From assembly GCA_029378245.1 (NCBI GenBank), contig JARKIF010000004.1:310001-374000 (forward strand): 64,000 nt of DNA, read 5' to 3'. Origin of the DNA: Roridomyces roridus (taxonomy: Eukaryota > Basidiomycota > Agaricomycetes > Agaricales > Mycenaceae). The notes beneath the pieces are model-generated. The model was not told where the DNA came from and did no database searches. It saw nothing but the letters and a program-made list of their open reading frames with translations. This document shows positions 1,384-57,613 of the stretch, in pieces (position 1 is the first letter of the stretch; the number at the start of each line of letters is the position of its first letter). The position numbers and the translations under genes were made by a program.

Positions 1384-2449
1384 CAGCTAAATGCGGAACA
1401 TAAGGCTCGGCTCGATTTTTGTCAAATTTCGTGACATTTCGATCACTTTCAGTAATTACGCTGTTGTGGGCTCGTTTCTTTTCCGAGTGTCTTCGGACAT
1501 GGACCAATCGATTCCCACTGTCGCTTTACAGTGCTTAGGCTACAAGAATCATTTGTGTTATTGCATCATTCTGTCAAATCAAGGGATCCGATGTTTTTCA
1601 ACCATTGACACTTTAACTGCCTTTGGAATGTTTTTGTGCACTAAATATTGAACCATTAGTCTCTCACAGGTGCCACACAGTGCATGGGGTGGTCTGTGCA
1701 GCCAGGTATGCCGCGGTTCTGTGTCTATTTATCATAACAGAGGTGCATCACAACATGACCATATTGTTAGCCACAGGACTCCGCGGCAGATATTCTGAGC
1801 ATGTCTGACTACAGTTCAGGGTCACATCTCAAAGTTCCGGGCTATCCGGAGGCACCGGAATCTGTTGATTCAATGCAGAGTGCAGCACAACCACTCGAAT
1901 GATTGTGCTTGTCACACTTGTGTCACGCATTCCGAGCGTCTGTCGGGCAGCGTTCTGCTCGTTTTCCGTTGCGTAAATGGCCCTCGGATGAGACGGGATG
2001 ATGGTACAGGATGTCTATGAGTGGCACCACATGGGTGGTTTGAGAAAATTAGCCCGCCACGAGCTGAGATACAACTGAACAGTGATGGCAAGAGATATTG
2101 ATACACCTACTTTTTCCTCATGAATCTGGACACAATTTTCGGCCATGGCGCACTGTATCAGATGTAGGAGAGTGCCCAGGTCAAATATTGGGACCCCAGT
2201 ACATTCCCCTCAACTGCTGGTGTGTCAATAGTTGAAATTAATCATTTGCTTCTCTGGGGTTCATATTCATACGAAACCAATTCATTCAAGTACCCTAGGC
2301 ACTGTAAAAGGACGGTGGAAATCGATTGGTTCATATCCGAAGACAATCGGAAAAGAAACGAGCCCGCGACAGCGTAATTACTGAAAGTGATCGAAATGTC
2401 ACGAAATTTGACAAAAATCGAGCCGCGCCTTATGTTCCGCATTTAGCTG
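1384..2449. mobile_element. Non-autonomous TIR element (MITE-like), TA target
   Basis: About 160 bases at 1384-1545 recur in inverted orientation at about 2285-2449 with roughly 90% identity. Both outer ends begin CAGCTAAATGCGG and are bordered by TA (1382-1383 and 2450-2451). The interior of about 740 bases codes for nothing recognisable. Terminal CAG next to a TA duplication suits a Tc1/mariner-type deletion derivative. The short open frames shared by both arms are simply the two faces of the repeat, not genes. Confidence 0.7.
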
Positions 2450-2539
2450 TAAGTATTGATCTAGACAGTTGCCCGGTATTTGAGGGTCCTTGGTGGACAA
2501 AACCTGGAATTGTGCAGGGATGTGTGGTTCTTTCTTCAA

Positions 2540-3245
2540 ATCTCAACAGAAATCTCAAGATCTTGAAAGATTTGGCTCATTTTGTAAGTTGAATCAAGTT
2601 CTTGCAACATCCATTGATATCTTGCTAGTTTTTGCACAATGTGGTATTTCAAGCAGGGTTCAGGTGATATTTTCTGCATTGCAGGGATGCAAGATCTGGT
2701 GAGTCAAACAACAAATGGAAAAAAGATAAAAAAATTGACACTGGAATCCCAAATTCTGTGGTGTGTCACAAGATCTTGGAAGGTTAAAGGCCACAAGTGT
2801 CGGAGCAAATCTCACATGACAATCACTGATTTTCTGATTGCCACCCACTCAGGCTGTTGATCCGTTGGCAGCCGAACCGCCAGGAAACGGATAGATCACA
2901 CTTTGGCGCCCTTCAACATAAAATGATTGATCACAGTAGCGGCTTGAACTCGGCCACCACGGCACCACCAACTCTGGTGAGATCTTGCATCCCTATTAGA
3001 CTTGATGAGCCATATTTTGACTTTCAATCTTTCAAAATCTTTGAACATTCGCTGCAAATCAGTGGCCTCAAAATGAATCAGTGGAACTTGCACAAACTTT
3101 CAAGATCTTGGGGGGAGGAAAATTCACAAGATCTTGCAAGATGATGGTCAAATAATGCCAGGGCAAGTCGACAATCATCCAATATCTTCCAAGATCTTGA
3201 ACAAACTGGAAGATCTTGCCAAATCTTGCAAGATCTTCGAAGATG
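2540..3245. repeat. Cluster of the palindrome CAAGATCTTG and variants
   Basis: The self-complementary motif CAAGATCTTG or a close variant occurs near 2553, 2690, 2767, 2980, 3102, 3127, 3191, 3212 and 3230. The copies fall into a left group (2540-2780) and a right group (2980-3245). Two groups of one short palindrome around a non-repetitive middle look like the subterminal repeats of a DNA transposon, but I could not fix outer ends or a target duplication. Confidence 0.45.
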
Positions 3246-48709: not shown

Positions 48710-51464
48710 CTAGTCGTAGTAGTAAATATCCACCCCATCCCCGCCGCACACAGTCAACGCGGATGTGTACGGCGACAACGCGATTTCACCAGCGTTCAAA
48801 CTGCGTGAAACCTCACTGGGTAGAGCCACCAGGCGCAAGCCGTCCACTTCCCCCCAATGGCGAGTCTCATCCGCTTGAAGGCGACACAGAGTATGCTGGG
48901 CGCGTTCACCGAGGCGGTATGACAACCCGTAACCTGCGCAGGTGAACGAATGGATGATGGTGGAATCAATAGGGCCGGTGGAGGACAGTGGCTCCCAGGT
49001 TGGGATGCTCGTGGCGGGGAGAAAACGGAGGCGGTATTTATATAAGGATGGGCTCCGGGAGGCGAGGTCCTCCGGGGGGATAGGATCCCACGTGTGGATG
49101 TAGGTCGACACGATGTAACAGTGGTCGGAGGCGTGGAGTGGGCAGCGGTGAACCGTCAGCAGAGGAAACGTCGGCGATGCAGAAAGTTGAGGGTATTATC
49201 TGAGACTGGGATCTGGGCCACCTAAGGGGTTTGATGATTTTTGCGAGGGATAGGTTTGTTTTGCTGGTTGTTTTGGACCCCAGGGAGGTAGACTAGGTTC
49301 CTACGAGCAGAACGAGGCCTGGGGCTTGGCATTCTGTCAAGGTTTGAGGTCATGGGAAGAAATTTGCCGAGACAGGTCCAAAATTGACTCAAACGGGCTA
49401 GTGGGCCACACGTGGGAAGCACCCCGCCTGTGGCGCGCAGAGGCAGCGGCGCAGCTGCAACTTGAATTAGGGACACTGAGAGGGCATGGGGAGTCCCAAT
49501 GCACACATTATTACCCCTCATCTCAGCCAAACTCAAGCCCGAACGCTGTTGGCACGAACTGGACGTCGCACGTATCACACGGGAGAATTTCAAGTCTAGG
49601 CCTCTCGAATTGTGTCGGATATCGACCAGGGGGTCATAGATGGTGTATTGGAACAACGTAGGGCATGTTTTAGCTACAACCGAGACGATATTCGGGAGGT
49701 AGGGAAAACCGGGTTTTGATGGGTCCGACGGCGAGCTCCCATCCAGCCCGGAAAGAGATGGGGAGAGCGGGGTAAGCTCATGGATGCAAGTTCAATATTG
49801 TTGGAACGCACCTGATTCACTAGCTCCACCACCGAGGTCCTCTATTCCTCGCAAAAAGTTCCAAATGGCGCCATAGCGAAAATCGGGGGTTTGCGGAAGA
49901 TTACGGTGATGACAAGATACGAAGACAGTTGAGAGGGAGCGACAGCAGCCAAATCTAAGTTTGACATGTGCCGAGTGGGTGTGCAAAGACCTGAGAGCAA
50001 AGGACCAGCACGTCGTCCGATGCAAGGGTGGCAAGCGGACGCCCATGTCGACACGTAAGCTCTGATTCACTGCGTCTGGCGACATGGAGCGGGCGAATCG
50101 GGGGGTAGGAAGAGTGTTGGTGGGTAGCCAGGGGTCCTCCGAGAAGAATGAGTCCCGCAGGTCGTGAGACGGTGCCGTGGTCGTGGAGAAAGAGGCTGAT
50201 GAGTGAGACCAAATTAAGAAATCACGTTTTTTGTTCGCACGCGCCTCCGTCTGACAGCCACAGCCTCACGTCAACTTCACCAATCTTCACCAAAATCGGT
50301 GTCCGAGGACGTCTGCATATGTCCTTCATTATACCGACAACATTTGGGAGGTAGCTCAACTCGACACAGTTATAATTGCCTAGTGGCCCACTAGCTAGTG
50401 TGGCCCACTAGGCAGTCGCTGATAATATCTACTCGTCTGCAAGACGATGGGGTCGACTCTGAAAGGTTTGAGTGAGGCAGCGGCCAGCGCCTCGGTGGTC
50501 AGCGGATTCCAGGCGCCGGAAAAAGCGGAATTGGGGTAGAGGAGGATTTGCGAGTCCTCGTTTGAGCGGCTCATTGCCAGAAGATTGCCCTGCAGGAGGT
50601 GCTGATGCAAGACTTGATAAAGGAACGACCTGATGGGAGGGAACATACCTTGTCCCTGACTGAGCAGGACAGAAGGACGAAAGTCCTTTCTCTCCAGTTC
50701 ACGAGAAGAACACCGGGCGTCCACCCGAGTTCCGGATGATACCACTCGGAATCGGCAGCCCAGAACTCGTCGTCAATGATCGAGTCGGCCAATGCGGGAA
50801 AGTTGTGGGGGAGCTGTGTATCCAACAGGCTCTCAGAGCCGGAGTCTTGAAGACTGATTTGGAGCACGACCTCGGCGTCCAGCTGAGGGATCTGCCCGCC
50901 AGTCAAGACTTGAAGAGATGAGAAAATGGGGAATGGTACAAGCGGTGCAAGTACGCACCGTTTCTGCCCGGTCCATAGCGCAATGACGATCCCTCGTTCA
51001 AGTGGCTGCGCAGCAACACGGCTCCACGGGACAGTTTCATTCGCCCATACTTTGCGGCCTTGAGAGACGTCCCAGATCTCGGAGCCCTTCCTCAAAATCC
51101 CGCATCCAACCAGCAGATGCTTTTCGCGAGCCAGCACGATGGGATTGTGGGGGCACGAATGCGAGGACATTGGAATGCGTAGTCTCCGGCGAAGGGTTGG
51201 TGCGGTTGCGCCCGCATTCCAGGTTCTTGGTCCAACGACTATCCGTTTGACGTGCGCGATGAGCTCGCAAAAAAAGTATTGCGCAAGGTCCTCGGGAATA
51301 GGGTACCATTGGCGTAACCTGTCGAGGATGGGTATCCAGACATGCTTGTCTTGTGAAAGACGTCGGAGGGAAGAGCAAACTGAAGACGCCTTGAGCACGG
51401 ATGCTACATCAAGGAAACCGAGGATCCGCAAGAGGACATCGAAGGCGAGGTCTAGCAGGTGCAT
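48710..51464 (-). CDS. F-box protein
   Basis: The first exon (51464 to about 50966) begins MHLLDLAFDVLLRILGFLDV, an F-box (L.LP-type helix, VLKASSVCSSLRRLSQDKHVW) that would bind SKP1 in an SCF ubiquitin ligase. Further exons cover about 50915-50650 (GGQIPQLDAEVVLQISL), 50580-50410 (GNLLAMSRSNEDSQILLY), about 50200-49800 and 49700-49220. The last exon ends CGGDGVDIYYYD at TAG 48710-48712. The C-terminal part has repeated hydrophobic strands with no clear WD40 or LRR signature. Intron borders between 50400 and 49100 are uncertain. About 700 residues. Large, variable F-box families are common in Agaricomycetes. Substrate unknown. Confidence 0.62.
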
Positions 51465-51801
51465 GATGGTGGTCTGGCAGGAGATGGAACGACTCCGAAA
51501 TCACGCGGATCAATGCTCAAATGTTTATCTCAGACTCTCCTAATTCTGGTGCTCGGTAACATTCTAGACTCGAACCAGTCCCACGGGCACTTTTGCAGGG
51601 GAAGGTATTAGTGCCCGTAGGGACTGGTAGGACTTAGGCGAGAAGTCGCAGGGTGAGGGAGCAGTTGGAAATATACCTCATTGGGATAATACCCCCCGTG
51701 GCCTTCACTAGACACGTGAGCGTGATCCGAGGAATTATATACATAGTGATTTCTCATTGATCTCCCGAAGTTTTACATATCTAGTATCTACGACAAGATG
51801 C
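51465..51801. other. F-box gene upstream region
   Basis: I recognise no gene. A short direct repeat (GACTGGTAGGACTT and related GGGACTGG) lies near 51580-51640. It presumably includes the F-box gene promoter. Confidence 0.35.
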
Positions 51802-51809
51802 ATCCAGCA

Positions 51810-52435
51810 TAGTGATGGGTCGGTCCGGTTCGGTTCGCGTTCGGACACCTTTTTGCTGAACGCCGAACGTGAACGCAGCGTTCGGTTCAGTGAACTCCTG
51901 AACCTTGAACCTGAACGCGCGTTCACGTTCAGTTCGGCGTTCGAACGCGTTCGAACCCCGGATTTTCCCGGTGATAATCTAAGCAAACTTCACGGTACTA
52001 TGAGCTTCAAATGTAGTCGGGGAAGCACTAAATAACGCAGACTAGGTACCCAGTGCAATTCTACGTGCACAACGCCCGTACAACCCGAGTTGCGCCGCTC
52101 TGATGTGCCATCAATACTGATCAGACAGCCAGCACCGACCCACCACAGTCTCTGGCCTGGGTTCTGGTTGCATTAAAGGTGACTGTGTGAGTGCTTTCAC
52201 TAATATGTCACGTCTCAAGCTGGTAATCAACTGGGAATTGCAGTCACAGTCCCGAGAATGGCGGCTTTCGGTTCGATTTCGCGTTCGCGTTCGAACGCGC
52301 CCACTCCCGCCCGAACGCCGAACCGAACTTTGCGTTCAGGTTCAGCAATTTCATGAACCTGAACGCTGAACGGGCGTTCGGTTCAGTTCGGTTCAGGTTC
52401 GAACCGTTTCTTTGAACCGGACCCACCCACCACTA
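51810..52435. mobile_element. 626-base hAT-like MITE with GAACG/CGTTC subterminal repeats
   Basis: The ends are TAGTGATGGGTCGGTCCGGTTC and the inverted counterpart of TAGTGGTGGGTGGGTCCGGTTC, flanked by the 8-base duplication ATCCAGCA (51802-51809 and 52436-52443). Both subterminal regions are packed with GTTCGAACG, GTTCGGTTC and CTGAACG repeats. The TAGNGNTGGG start and 8-base duplication are typical of hAT elements. No coding capacity. Confidence 0.85.
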
Positions 52436-52443
52436 ATCCAGCA

Positions 52444-53097
52444 TGGCCCTTACTGGCGCATTATGTATGCCCCGGGCACAAGTTCATGAGGGGAGAGGAA
52501 GTGACGGCGGTATTATCAAAGCAGATTGATGGACCGCGTATCATGGGAATGACCTGCTAAATAGGGTATCCCCTACTCTGCGTAGCAGAGAAGGGTTTCC
52601 GTGGGCGTGAAATGTTGATCTCCAGCCAACTCGACGCGATCAAAGATCCATGTCAGATCAGAATCAATGACGAATGGCCCGGTCGAGACCATCCAGATAT
52701 TTATCTCCCGTGCCGTCAGATTTGCAGACATGCCGTTCCTCGGAACATCGGCACTCCTACTCATGTCAGAGTGAAATTTTAGCGACCGGTTACAGCGGAA
52801 TGAAAAATGTTAGACACAAACAAATTTTCGTTGATGTGCGGACCCAGTGCGGCCCAACGCTGCTCCAACACTTGCCAGGCGTTGCCGGTGACATCCAGCT
52901 CCACAATGACGACTCCAGGATACCCATTTCCTGCCTGAGCTCTTCGGCCCGAATGTGAACGCGAGATCAGATTGTGTCTATTGTTTTTCATTCAGCTGTA
53001 AGCCGAGCTTTAATATTTTCGTCGCCGCACAGCCGGCTGACGGCCGGTGGATACCGGCATGTCACATTGATTATTTCTGAGGTCAGACGGGACTTGG
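52444..53097. other. Region between two MITEs without a recognised gene
   Basis: Minus-strand frames at 52991-52779 (GYPGVVIVELDVTGNAWQVL) and 52764-52573 (INIWMVSTGPFVIDSDL) have protein-like composition and could be exons of one small gene. I do not recognise a family and could not link them. Confidence 0.3.
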
Positions 53098-53105
53098 AGC
53101 CAGGA

Positions 53106-53641
53106 TAAGGCTCCAACCGTTTCCGTTCGCAAACCGTTTGTGCCGAAAAAACGGTTTTTATTTCCGTTTTGTTTGCCAGGACCCGGAAACAGTTTCCCAA
53201 ACCATTTGCAAACAGTTTCTCTTGCCACACCTGGGGGGCTTAGAATCAACCAAATTGCTGCTACGTGCAGTCTCCCAGCAGGCCTGTACACTTGTGGTCA
53301 AACCGTTTCTTTGATCCGTGAAATTTTAACCCACATACCGCCAGTGAAATTGCAGTGAAATCGAGCCCCACGCTCCTGGCAGCTGCTTAGTCAAACCAAT
53401 CTCGCTTGACAAATTCCCAATCTCCCTCCCCGTTGGTGTTGAACGGCTCTGATACTCCGCAGATTGCATCCGTGTACACACCAAAGCATCCTGGGACCGC
53501 TGGGCCACTCTGGACACTGTAGAACGGGTTCCCCGGATTTATCCGTTCGGAAACCGTTTGCAAACGGTTGCAAACGGTTTCCTTCCGTTTCCGTTCTGTT
53601 TGCCCAGAATCGCAAACGGAAACGAAACGGTTGGAGCCTTA
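53106..53641. mobile_element. 536-base hAT-like MITE with AAACCGTTT-type repeats
   Basis: The ends TAAGGCTCCAACCGTTTCCGTT and the inverted copy AACGAAACGGTTGGAGCCTTA are flanked by the perfect 8-base duplication AGCCAGGA (53098-53105 and 53642-53649). The subterminal regions hold many copies of AACCGTTT, AAACGGTT and CCGTTTCCGTT. No open frame. Confidence 0.88.
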
Positions 53642-53939
53642 AGCCAGGAGGTCCCAAGTGCTTATGGAGTATCACACTGTTCTGCCAGGTTCTGCCATAC
53701 CCATAACTCTCCTTACTCTGAGTGAAAAATAACAACAAATCTTTTGCAGAGTAGGGGAACGGTGCTCGCACCGCTATAGATATATTTCAATTGCTCCCGC
53801 ACCCTGCCATCTCTCGCCTAAGTTGTACCAGCCTTTACTGAAGGTATTCCTGAAGTAAATGCTGTAACATTCCTTTGCATTCTGATGGACAACCGAACAA
53901 GATCCATAGAGCCTCGTCGAATCGCCGGCATACCCGTCT

Positions 53940-55147
53940 TCATACATGCACCAATTCCTCCCCTTGCTCATGAATCACCCTCTCCTTCGCCCAGGCCTGT
54001 ACGTTGTCAAACTTCCGGCACGTATGTGCAACGTCACTTCTAAAGACGCTCGTATTACGGGCGGAGTCCCATTGCCATCTGTTAGAATAAACTGAGCGAG
54101 GAGGAAGAGAGAGGAAGGGGAAAGGAAGACTCACACAATAACACTGGTATCGCTCGTACACATGATTGATTGGCGTAGCCATTCCACGCAATGGGCTTCA
54201 GTTATCCGTCAACAGAAGGAGGGTAGGGAGAGAGAGAAGGAAGGAACTCACAAATATGTTGGGTGACATTCTTCTGCTCCGGAATCCAATTATTTGCGGT
54301 CGAGATGCGCCAGGCGGGGTAGTAGTCTGGGTCGAGCTGCACGAATGATCTTGGTTATCCTGGTCAATGGGTGCAGAAGAGGTCTAGTGCGTACCGCCAT
54401 CCTGATTTTATTCTATCATATCAAGTCAAGTTTCAATTCAAAGTGATATAGGCCAATAGAGCAAGGAGGAGGACGCACCAGACAGTGCAGGGTGTGAAAT
54501 ACGTCCAGCGCGGCGATCTAATTCTGGTTTTCAATGAAGGCTAACAGACGGAAAAGATACATGCATAATGCCCCTCGTCCCCAGGTATCTCCTCCGTCTT
54601 GTTGGGAAGCATCGACGCCTCGTCTTTGGTTATCCGCGAGACGCCGACTAATCTTTGCGTAAGTACAAGCGGGTGTGGAGATTAAATTGAGACTGACAAT
54701 TATACAGATCGCTCCACATTTTATCCAAATGTGGAGAGGAAGGGATTTGGAAATCGGAAAAGTTGTCTGATTTTCAACTTGGTTAGCTCATGCGGCTTTG
54801 TGTCGATGCTCATTATTGACCGGAAAATCCGACATTGAATACCTTGACCTCAGTCTCGACGGCGCCCAGCGCTGGAGCTGCGAACACGATGAAAAGGAGC
54901 CGGGCAGAAAGACGACACACGCACAGTATAACACTTGCCCAGAGTCTAACGCAACGCTGCAGTTCTGTTGAGGAGCCCGTACGAAAAGAAGGATAACGGC
55001 TAGAAGTGCAGCGGTTTCGACAGCGAGGAGAGCGAGGAGCACCGTGCGGGATGCCCAGGGTGACGCCGATGGTGTCGCAGAGCGAGCGTCGGGATCCAGA
55101 TCATCCTCCATGAGCGGCTGGTACTCCGGATCCTGGTCCTTCGACAT
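53940..55147 (-). CDS. UstYa/DUF3328-family oxidase, probable RiPP-tailoring enzyme
   Basis: Nine exons give 255 residues: 55147-54925, 54871-54821, 54766-54698, 54647-54565, 54517-54479, 54412-54395, 54336-54252, 54195-54135 and 54078-53940. The layout is that of the family: an acidic N-terminus (MSKDQDPEYQPLMEDDLD), one membrane segment (about residues 33-54), then WSDLYNFGVSRITKDEA and LPNKTEEIPGDEGHY. The two diagnostic motifs are intact: HTLHC in ALDVFHTLHCLN, and HCVEWLRQSIMC. The end DVAHTCRKFDNVQAWAKER is typical. In ascomycetes, UstYa proteins oxidise and crosslink Kex2-released core peptides. It is divergent from the repeat precursor gene, 311 bases away. The exon 4 donor must be GC (GCATGT), and GTCAAT and GTCAGT donors are used, so splicing needs RNA evidence. 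Confidence 0.82.
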
Positions 55148-55458
55148 ATTGGCGGGGGATGAGATCGATGAGAGTGCATGGACGAACCCTGGAGCCATTT
55201 ATGGGAAGCATCGGATTTTGGGCGGGCAGACGTATTCAATACTTCCCGAACGAGTACCTGAATCGAGCGCCAGAACAAGAGATAATCCGACATTGCCCGC
55301 CGGGTACCTGACATCCCATCGCACGGTCTCCGTTACCTGCCCGCGTAAGCTTCCCATCTGCAGTTATATTAAGTAAGAAGCAAGCGTACCGGCCCTGAGG
55401 CGGGACGTGAGGGTCGTATAAAGAGGGGGGATGAGATGCTGAGATCTGAGACTCCAAT
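55148..55458. promoter_or_regulatory. Bidirectional promoter region of the UstYa-precursor pair
   Basis: 311 bases separate the two divergent start codons. TATAAAG at 55417-55423 lies 36 bases before the precursor ATG, implying a very short leader. The minus-strand start has no equally clear TATA box. The shared space suggests joint regulation. Confidence 0.5.
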
Positions 55459-56289
55459 ATGTACAGCAAGTTCTCTACTCTCCTTTTCTTCGTCTTCGTG
55501 GCCGCGGTCGCAGCCAGCCCGTTTAAAGCGGTGGTGAGCGCAGGCCGAGTTGGGTCGACTGCCCGCTAATTTGTCTCTCAAGGCCGTCGAAGGGGACACT
55601 GGAGTCGCCGACATTGTAGGTGAAGGCCAGTGTACGACGAAGAAGCACTCACTTTTCGCAGTCGTTCAACAAGTACCGCAGGGTTGACTCGGTAAGTATT
55701 TGTCTCGAGGTCGGTAGAGACAATGTATTGATTCCATCGGATTTCTGCCAAGGCCAACGAGGGGGGCGAAGGAAGCGCAGACATTGTAAGTGAAGGCCAG
55801 TGTAAGACGACGAAGCACTCACTTTTCGCAGTCGTTCACCAAGTACCGCAGGGTTGACTCGGTACGTATTTGTCTCGAGGTCGGTAGAGACAACGTATTG
55901 ATTCTATGTTTCTGCGAAGGCCGACACTGGCGATGAAGGACTCGCTGACATCGTGAGTGAAGGTCGTGCACGATGACAATGAAAACACCCACTTTTCGCA
56001 GTCGTTCAACAAGTACCGTCGGGGAGACTCTGTTCGTATGCATCTCGACCGATAGAAACAATCCGCTGATCATATCTTTGGTGTGGAAAGGCCGGTGAAG
56101 AGGATGCAGACCATGTGAGTGAAATGGTCGAGCTGCCCCAAGTTCCTCATGAGTTTCACGTTTTCCGCAGTGGTTTGTGTCGTACCGCCGCTCGGACGAC
56201 TCGAATGAGGATAAAGGACCTGGTGACAAAGTGAGTACATGAAACGAAGAGGCCATACCCGGAGAACTGACGAGGATTTGGTATAGTAA
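55459..56289 (+). CDS. Repeat-containing secreted precursor peptide (dikaritin-like RiPP candidate) made of microexons
   Basis: Ten exons, all introns phase 0: 55459-55533, 55583-55615, 55662-55691, 55753-55785, 55832-55861, 55920-55952, 56002-56031, 56091-56114, 56171-56230 and 56287-56289 (only the stop). Reading through the last donor instead adds VST. Exon 1 is a signal peptide (MYSKFSTLLFFVFVAAVAAS). Then 33-base spacer exons (AVEGDTGVADI, ANEGGEGSADI, ADTGDEGLADI) alternate with 30-base core exons (SFNKYRRVDS, SFTKYRRVDS, SFNKYRRGDS). A degenerate fourth pair reads AGEEDADH and WFVSYRRSDDS. Every core ends Y-RR, a dibasic Kex2 site, within acidic spacers. The product has 116 residues. 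In known dikaritins (ustiloxin, phomopsin, asperipin), tyrosine-containing cores before dibasic sites are cyclised by UstYa enzymes, and one is encoded next door. The product is inferred, not known. Confidence 0.8.
55583..56286 (+). repeat. Four tandem units of about 170 bases in the precursor gene
   Basis: Units 55583-55752, 55753-55919, 55920-56090 and 56091-56286 each contain a spacer exon, an intron, a core exon and an intron. Introns are conserved too: GTGAAGGCCAGTGTA.GACGA...CACTTTTCGCAG in the first two, and TATTTGTCTCGAGGTCGGTAGAGACAA in the second introns of units 1 and 2. The DNA unit, not just the coding repeat, was duplicated. Divergence rises from units 1-2 to unit 4. Confidence 0.85.
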
Positions 56290-56745: not shown

Positions 56746-57613
56746 TCACTGGGGTGTGCTCTGAACACCCTCAGCTTGGAGCTTCACCCACGACGGCCGC
56801 GTCACAAGCTCGTTCCACCACCTTACAAGCCATCCCGTGAGCCGAAGAAGGGACCTCTGACGACCAACTCACCTGGCGACATTGGGCCCCGAAGTCGTCA
56901 CCACGTCGATTCCATTGGAGACCACCATTGGCATGTACATCAAGTGGAAGATGTCGGCGAGGGTGAACTCCTGCGATAGGTACCCAGTCAAGTTCAAGAC
57001 CTTTTGAAGAAGAAGACGACTCACATCTCCGGCGACGTATTTCTGCTTGCCCAAGATGACATCGTACACCTTGAGCTTCTCCCTCAGCTCTTCGACGTAG
57101 CCGGCAAGCGCCACCTCGTCCACGGTCTCCCCGCGCATCCTGCCAAAACTTGTCAATTTCATCGACTCGAAAGGCAGCTCGACGCACGTTTTCCCCATCT
57201 TCTCCATCAAGACTTTCATCACCGCTGGATGCCAATTGGCGCTCTCGACCGACGCCGCCTGCTCGAACATCGCCTTCTGCTTGAGGTCGGTCGGAATCAA
57301 GGTGGGTCCCTGATCCGCGTATTTCTCCGCTAGATAACGGCAGATGGCGCGGCTCTCGTAGACGATGAACCCGTCGTCGTCCTGCGGAGCGGTGAGTGGA
57401 TATCATTATGAATTCACGCAGTTCAGCTGATGTACGCACGATGTATGGAACCTGCCCGAATGGCTGCTTGGCGAGATGTTCGGGGGTCTTGTGCTCCTTG
57501 GCAGCCATGTCGACGCGGACAAGCTCGAAAGGGATTTGCTTTTCAGCCAACAACACGGCGACGATACCGTTACCGCCGCCTGGACGATTACCACCGTGGA
57601 GTTTCAAGACCAT
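56746..57613 (-). CDS. Glutathione S-transferase (phi-like/GTT-type), copy 1
   Basis: Four exons: 57613 to about 57439, about 57380-57027, about 56970-56872 and about 56821-56746, with short GT-AG introns. The thioredoxin-like N-domain starts MVLKLHGGNRPGGGNGIVAV and shows the cis-proline segment QPFGQVPYI and then ESRAICRYLAEKYAD. The helical C-domain has KQKYVAGD and FTLADIFHLMYMP with the conserved aspartate, then NVARWWNELVTRPSW. About 215 residues. GSTs conjugate glutathione to electrophiles and sometimes act in fungal biosynthesis. It lies 460 bases from the RiPP candidate, but a second copy at the window end suggests a separate local GST pair. Confidence 0.85.

Follow-up and report, generated by a model that had tools for sequence, protein, structure and literature searches.

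We analysed a 64,000-nucleotide stretch of the genome of Roridomyces roridus, an agaric in the family Mycenaceae (positions 310001-374000 of contig C334, JARKIF010000004.1, within the 90.8-Mb assembly), here called the window, whose numbering is used below unless a contig or locus is named. In this window a nine-exon gene for a secreted precursor with repeated Kex2 sites lies head to head with a gene of the UstYa (DUF3328) oxidase family. With moderate confidence we read the two as a minimal dikaritin-like pathway for a ribosomally synthesised and post-translationally modified peptide (RiPP) in a basidiomycete, new in its core and in its exon-cassette layout, in which oxidation or cyclisation of the core would be the task of the UstYa enzyme. 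An earlier note had proposed, from the letters of the window, that a secreted precursor with Kex2 repeats lies hidden here, divergent from a two-motif UstYa gene; this is supported by the gene models, with both HxxHC motifs present, and by a second such pair (locus L037) in the same genome. The spacing that it gave also holds, as the start codons lie on opposite strands (ATG 55147 for UstYa, minus; ATG 55459 for the precursor, plus) with 311 bp between them. The two models and their adjacency are read directly from the DNA.

For the precursor gene we found no annotated counterpart. Its nine exons on the plus strand (55459-56230) have lengths that are all multiples of 3 and join into one open frame, and its introns (8 of 8) are 46-61 nt long, have GT...AG ends and lie in phase 0. 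The product consists, in order, of MYSKFSTLLFFVFVAAVAASPFKAV, three units of spacer and core-RR, AGEEDADH and then WFVSYRRSDDSNEDKGPGDK. The leader is hydrophobic with a small-residue site by a simple hydropathy rule, in keeping with the signal peptide of Kex2-processed repeat proteins. Four RR sites follow three near-identical cores and one diverged core, as in the repeated units of such proteins, and Tyr stands directly before RR in all four cores (SFNKY, SFTKY, SFNKY, WFVSY), as a dikaritin core would have it. The signal peptide and the repeats of acidic spacer, SF[N/T]KY and RR described earlier do form one continuous nine-exon frame, with the fourth core diverged to WFVSY. The C-terminus is ambiguous by a few residues, either by read-through (...GDKVST) to a TGA or by a last intron leading to a TAA. 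Calculated linear monoisotopic [M+H]+ values are 1946.861 for VDSANEGGEGSADISFTKY, 2016.903 for VDSADTGDEGLADISFNKY, 1784.703 for GDSAGEEDADHWFVSY, 771.404 for ISFNKY and 658.320 for SFNKY. Within the genome, a pattern search returned the window's four units only and a DNA search the window array only; contig C121 (51,455 bases) matches C334 as far as about window 37 kb, where it ends short of the pair, and no copy of the pair on a second haplotype was seen.

At the DNA level the precursor repeats in tandem with a period of 170 bp, and units 1 and 2 of this array agree at 93% and 89% in their introns, 97% in the core and 70% in the spacer exon. Because the array arose by tandem duplication, this agreement proves little. 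Judged on the letters, better evidence against chance is the diverged unit 4, in which donor, acceptor and frame are all retained, together with the variety of the RR codons: all four units retain RR, by differing codon pairs (CGC-AGG twice, CGT-CGG, CGC-CGC), and across units 1-3 SFNKY-RR varies by a single replacement (N to T) and two synonymous changes of codon. As a separate observation, between window 55583 and 55785 the spacer exons of units 1 and 2 (70%) are less alike than the introns (89-93%), a contrast that suggests gene conversion in patches or a shift in the edge of the duplication.

The protein of the divergent gene is 100% identical to FB45DRAFT_1053696 of R. roridus. It matches PF11807 at 166.9 bits (curated cut-off 25) and carries two HxxHC motifs, HTLHC and HISHC, the pattern by which dikaritin enzymes are recognised; the claim of both catalytic motifs stands in this form, and the second, given earlier as HCxxxRQ, is actually HCxxxxRQ and lies inside the second HxxHC. 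Residues H157, H160, C161, H195, H198, C199, R204, C209, H235 and C237 match at least 68 of the 69 alignment rows, and the model has no stop or frame break as far as its tail. The column of ATG 55147 holds M in 65 of 68 relatives, which makes it a likelier start than the annotated one. Database searches gave 84 related proteins, of which 74 belong to Mycena, Roridomyces or Favolaschia and 8 to other agarics. The AlphaFold model has a mean pLDDT of 80.7; among solved structures there was no relative by sequence at E ≤ 1 and none by fold at E ≤ 0.001. The features of both genes are collected in Table 1.

Table 1. Features of the UstYa gene, the precursor gene and the stretch between them, in window positions.
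Feature	Position	Strand	Remark
UstYa/DUF3328 gene, 9 exons, 257 aa	53940-55147	-	annotated FB45DRAFT_1053696, other start exon
UstYa exons 1-5	55147-54925, 54877-54821, 54766-54698, 54647-54565, 54517-54479	-	
UstYa exons 6-9	54412-54395, 54336-54252, 54195-54135, 54078-53940	-	
UstYa intron with GC donor (at 54564)	54518-54564	-	annotated P0001 has identical residues across the junction
Divergent intergenic stretch	55148-55458	.	311 bp between UstYa and precursor start codons
TATA-like box	55417-55423	+	42 bases ahead of precursor start codon
Precursor exons 1-5	55459-55533, 55583-55615, 55662-55691, 55753-55785, 55832-55861	+	
Precursor exons 6-9	55920-55952, 56002-56031, 56091-56114, 56171-56230	+	
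Exon 1, start codon and signal-peptide-like leader MYSKFSTLLFFVFVAAVAASPFKAV	55459-55533	+	exon model, hydropathy rule
Unit 1	55583-55691	+	spacer exon 55583-55615 AVEGDTGVADI; intron 55616-55661; core exon 55662-55691 SFNKYRRVDS
Unit 2	55753-55861	+	spacer exon 55753-55785 ANEGGEGSADI; intron 55786-55831; core exon 55832-55861 SFTKYRRVDS
Unit 3	55920-56031	+	spacer exon 55920-55952 ADTGDEGLADI; intron 55953-56001; core exon 56002-56031 SFNKYRRGDS
Unit 4 (diverged) and tail	56091-56230	+	spacer exon 56091-56114 AGEEDADH; intron 56115-56170; last exon 56171-56230 WFVSYRRSDDSNEDKGPGDK
Precursor 3' end	56231-56289	+	in-frame TGA 56240-56242, or last intron to TAA 56287-56289 (by eye)

The genome was searched for the UstYa family (28 exon-level hits), and 12 regions were read, namely the window and 11 others. 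Further copies, outside these regions or read to 1.5-kb flanks, lie on C62, C201:552127, C179:760319, C162, C487, C349 and C108; those on C62, C201, C179, C162 and C487 are 96-99.9% duplicates of regions read, and those on C349 and C108 were taken as alleles on equal search scores. A repeat gene was found by scan in 5 of the 12 regions (window, L037, L038, L042 and L044), the others being scan-negative, and in the first four of these a repeat precursor lies within about 0.5 kb of the UstYa match. Two loci were excluded from this count: L044, where two UstYa matches lie at about 3.5 and 4.8 kb from the precursor and its family has copies away from the listed UstYa hits, and L036, where a secreted gene without repeats by scan lies 1.3 kb from UstYa. 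In control stretches the same repeat scan gave no positive among 27, made up of 8 tiles of the window and 19 other loci that are partly redundant. None of the 9 window tiles was positive, and 8 were used because tile 49001-56000 holds part of the precursor; L016, the sole positive of 20 other loci, overlaps the precursor and was left out (0/19). These 19 loci are neither independent, as several overlap one another or the window and several are copies of one transposon or of the glutathione transferase gene, nor a random sample of the genome. The scan catches the window precursor only through the 6-mers THFSQS and HFSQSF, which span an in-frame intron end, and so registers tandem DNA, not the spliced peptide.

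The second pair with two HxxHC motifs lies on the same contig (L037, C334:2436500-2443500). At this locus the precursor (952-1577, minus) and a UstYa gene (from 2101, plus) are divergent with start codons 523 bp apart; the precursor has six 27-aa units such as AEEVDQGNNKWCSEEDGVDGVNCDWKR, in which Cys and Trp are present, and the UstYa protein (P0035) is 56% identical to that of the window and retains GT-AG introns and an acidic C-tail. The arrangement of a divergent UstYa gene and a Kex2-repeat precursor is the same as in the window, whereas the six repeats stand in a single large exon in place of the window's microexons, a second UstYa gene comes next and the acidic C-tail is kept. The L037 pair is the better preserved of the two. 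At L038, the precursor is 507 bp from the UstYa match and divergent from it, with 14-aa units EFAIAEEEPRLEGR that end in GR and have no dibasic pair between them. At L042, the precursor (2072-3082, plus) lies about 0.14 kb upstream of a UstYa-like gene on the same strand.

A precursor of the L037 type apparently accompanies its UstYa clade in a second species. The L037 precursor query gave one protein match among 7986 candidates scored, P0085 of Mycena sanguinolenta (E = 3.9e-21); since P0085 and the UstYa protein P0023 are both on a 1,540,862-base contig, they are taken to share it. In a 69-row UstYa tree, P0023 and P0035 fall in one 9-row clade (support 99/98), and the window UstYa falls in a separate clade (support 97/96). 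In the single testable case, that of the L037 type, precursor type thus apparently follows UstYa clade. P0085 has a single-basic IR where R. roridus has KR, and the two may therefore be processed differently. That protein search did not return the L037 precursor of R. roridus, which seems to be unannotated too.

Exon-per-repeat precursors also occur elsewhere in the genome. In L051 (C57:1226008-1229439), nine phase-1 exons of 57-60 nt at 1008-2084 hold one repeat each, like GSETQPPRRSIDINEDATI; across eight of these, exons are 91% alike and introns 84%, and differences at codon positions 1/2/3 number 26/31/87. This third-position bias supports the view that symmetric microexons with one repeat each are genuinely coding here. 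Relatives of the L044 repeat gene were found at C57:1226728-1228167, C57:1412380-1413268, on C157 (with C72), on C460 and on C357. Genes with GSETQPPRRSIDINEDATI-like units form a multi-copy exon-cassette Kex2-repeat family in which every repeat has a phase-1 exon of its own, about 57-69 nt long, and further copies of the exon-cassette family are at C57:1412380-1413268, C157:617859-619192, C460:131417-132301 and C357:465929-466578.

Ten open frames flanking the pair were scanned for domains. Six had one, namely a glutathione transferase fragment (below cut-off), histone deacetylase, F-box, HMG box, SET and KDZ transposase, and four had none; there was no methyltransferase, transporter or peptidase among the ten, and no further search was made. 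On these results the gene set is minimal, like that of asperipin-2a with its one DUF3328 protein (PMC7329392). A glutathione transferase-like gene (56780-57610, minus) adjoins the pair and has several genome copies, 85-89% alike at C334:292948-294290.

Near other UstYa genes, small secreted products were seen. At L036 (about 925-1384, minus), a gene of apparently several short exons is divergent from UstYa, and its aromatic stretches GSFYWNHTD and GTFWWHSED resemble each other by eye. On C179 and C201, small secreted peptides of one family (MALKIMFPVLLVLVLLSG... and FYSNSDSCTVNGGEISWSLS), without repeats by scan, are encoded at L039 5900, 6735 and 7418 (minus) and L041 5123 (minus).

Kex2 cleavage, oxidation and the choice of linked residue are predictions from these gene models. 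The precursor would enter the secretory pathway and be cleaved behind every RR by Kex2-type proteases, with the RR itself trimmed off by a carboxypeptidase of the Kex1 type. The resulting peptides would end in ...ADISF[N/T]KY and ...HWFVSY and might be trimmed further at the N-terminus. A membrane-anchored UstYa would then oxidise the core, most simply by a cross-link of the Tyr side chain (with Ile or Trp), as in asperipin and the epichloecyclins. As every core has a frame-neutral microexon to itself, duplication of a unit alters copy number with the frame unbroken.

The core of asperipin-2a, an Aspergillus product, is FYYTGY; it differs from that of R. roridus, as does its host, an ascomycete, and its product is known. 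What the two share is one DUF3328 protein with a secreted repeat precursor bearing Kex2 sites (PMC7329392, PMC12048977). Ustiloxins and phomopsins likewise derive from a secreted repeat precursor with Kex2 sites and UstYa-type enzymes, but they need a tyrosinase, have two and five DUF3328 genes against one UstYa in the R. roridus pair, and place Tyr first in their cores (YAIG/YVIG, YVIP), where the R. roridus core has it last (PMC7329392, PMC9233826). Epichloecyclins (gigA, Epichloe) also come from a multi-core precursor and link an N-terminal Ile to an internal Tyr (PMC9233826); both I and Y are present in ADISF[N/T]KY, although epichloecyclins are cyclic nonapeptides from an ascomycete. Kex2-processed repeat proteins of agarics have the signal peptide, repeated units and dibasic sites of the precursor described here and are, like it, from Agaricomycetes.

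A review places dikaritins among ascomycete RiPPs (PMC9233826), and a newer definition relies on DUF3328 alone, with two HxxHC motifs as the criterion for that domain (PMC12048977). In ascomycetes, according to a survey of 2020, 1647 of 5372 Kex2-repeat genes (30.1% as printed) have a DUF3328 gene nearby, against 103 of 1680 (6.1%) in basidiomycetes, and the survey asks whether cyclisation hardly occurs in the latter (PMC7329392); given those 103, pairs of this kind are not new as such in basidiomycetes. In Pleurotus, 6 of 16 UstYa-like genes are developmentally expressed (PMC8893723). High intron density is said to hamper the identification of amatoxin-type cluster genes in basidiomycetes (PMC9233826). 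The word 'intron' has 0 occurrences in the main texts of PMC7329392, PMC6339444 and PMC12048977, and in the text of PMC9769878, where its one mention concerns cDNA cloning, an intron-per-repeat layout was not seen. A literature search on introns within each repeat gave no paper, and none of the titles and abstract openings listed by further searches describes this pair. As far as the open-access literature searched shows, the core, the occurrence of such a pair in Mycenaceae and the exon-cassette precursor seem to be new.

Several results weigh against a modified product and bear on what else the pair might be. A protein search gave no homologue of the SF[N/T]KY precursor (none at E ≤ 10 among 188 candidates) through which conservation of this very pair could be traced. 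The older five-gene definition of dikaritins includes a tyrosinase in the cluster, and none of the 11 tyrosinase matches listed for the genome (such counts being lower bounds) is on C334; the ten flanking frames contain no tailoring-enzyme domain except the weak glutathione transferase match. Among the four close pairs, both HxxHC motifs occur in the nearest UstYa of the window and L037 only, so that a strict count of two-HxxHC UstYa genes with dibasic repeats gives 2 of 12 regions. L038 is a weak pair, its nearest UstYa-like frame having no HxxHC, and at L042 the UstYa has the second HxxHC only and the units (CFWNGG/GWYWCA) have an intron inside each core, a stop or a change of frame disrupting some of them. 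The main alternative, serious if rather unlikely, is that the precursor is an ordinary repeat protein processed by Kex2 and yields linear secreted peptides for signalling or defence, with the UstYa gene incidental or acting on another substrate. This fits the mass spectrometry of Kex2-repeat peptides from four agarics, which unlike the product proposed here were linear or minimally modified (PMC9769878), the small share of basidiomycete Kex2-repeat genes near DUF3328 (103 of 1680; PMC7329392) and the signs of loosened constraint in the window UstYa. It is also kept alive by the exon-per-repeat precursors related to the L044 gene, whose nearest listed UstYa hits are at least 80 kb off or on other contigs, so that such precursors need no UstYa nearby. 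What speaks for modification instead is the 311-bp divergent spacing from start to start, the second divergent pair at L037, the apparent clade-matched linkage in M. sanguinolenta and the Tyr in every core.

The state of the UstYa gene raises another alternative, a decaying or recently degenerated pair in which the precursor is still readable and UstYa is no longer made in working form, leaving no modified peptide; we regard this as improbable. The gene had been called intact in the earlier note, which was right about the precursor/UstYa pairing and about the catalytic motifs but overstated on this point, because the model requires a GC-donor intron, at a site (54564) where the L037 paralogue has GTGAGT, and the C-tail ends before an acidic doublet kept in 66 and 62 of 68 relatives; P0001 thus lacks the doublet that characterises the UstYa group of Mycenaceae and near relatives. 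P0001 also deviates at 4 of 58 conserved columns (one of the four being merely the annotated start), with none or one deviating in 46 of 68 relatives, and no branch in the 7-row clade of the window UstYa is longer than its own (0.61). The broken repeat units of L042 show that decay of such genes occurs. Set against decay are the uninterrupted UstYa frame up to the tail, the two HxxHC motifs with the other near-invariant H, C and R residues, and a precursor frame open across four RR sites. That the precursor is a splice-model artefact, its in-frame exons picked out of tandem non-coding DNA, we think highly improbable: very short exons do allow freedom in the choice of splice sites, and units 1 and 2 are near-copies, introns included, that agree for free, but unit 4 retains its donor, acceptor and frame despite divergence, RR codons change silently, leader and TATA-like box are in place, and L051, of similar layout, shows coding bias.

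It is possible, though we put it forward only tentatively, that Mycenaceae, and perhaps agarics widely, hold a largely unseen class of UstYa-modified peptides with exon-cassette precursors that gene finders have missed, every copy of the peptide being carried by one frame-neutral microexon or by two. If so, exon duplication would expand the cassette repertoires, and alternative splicing could re-cut them. The pair supplies defined peptide masses to seek in a non-model mushroom; the L037 type, clade-matched and apparently common to M. sanguinolenta, deserves to be targeted before the window pair. If annotation misses precursors with one microexon per peptide, part of the gap between ascomycetes and basidiomycetes in DUF3328 pairing may be an artefact.

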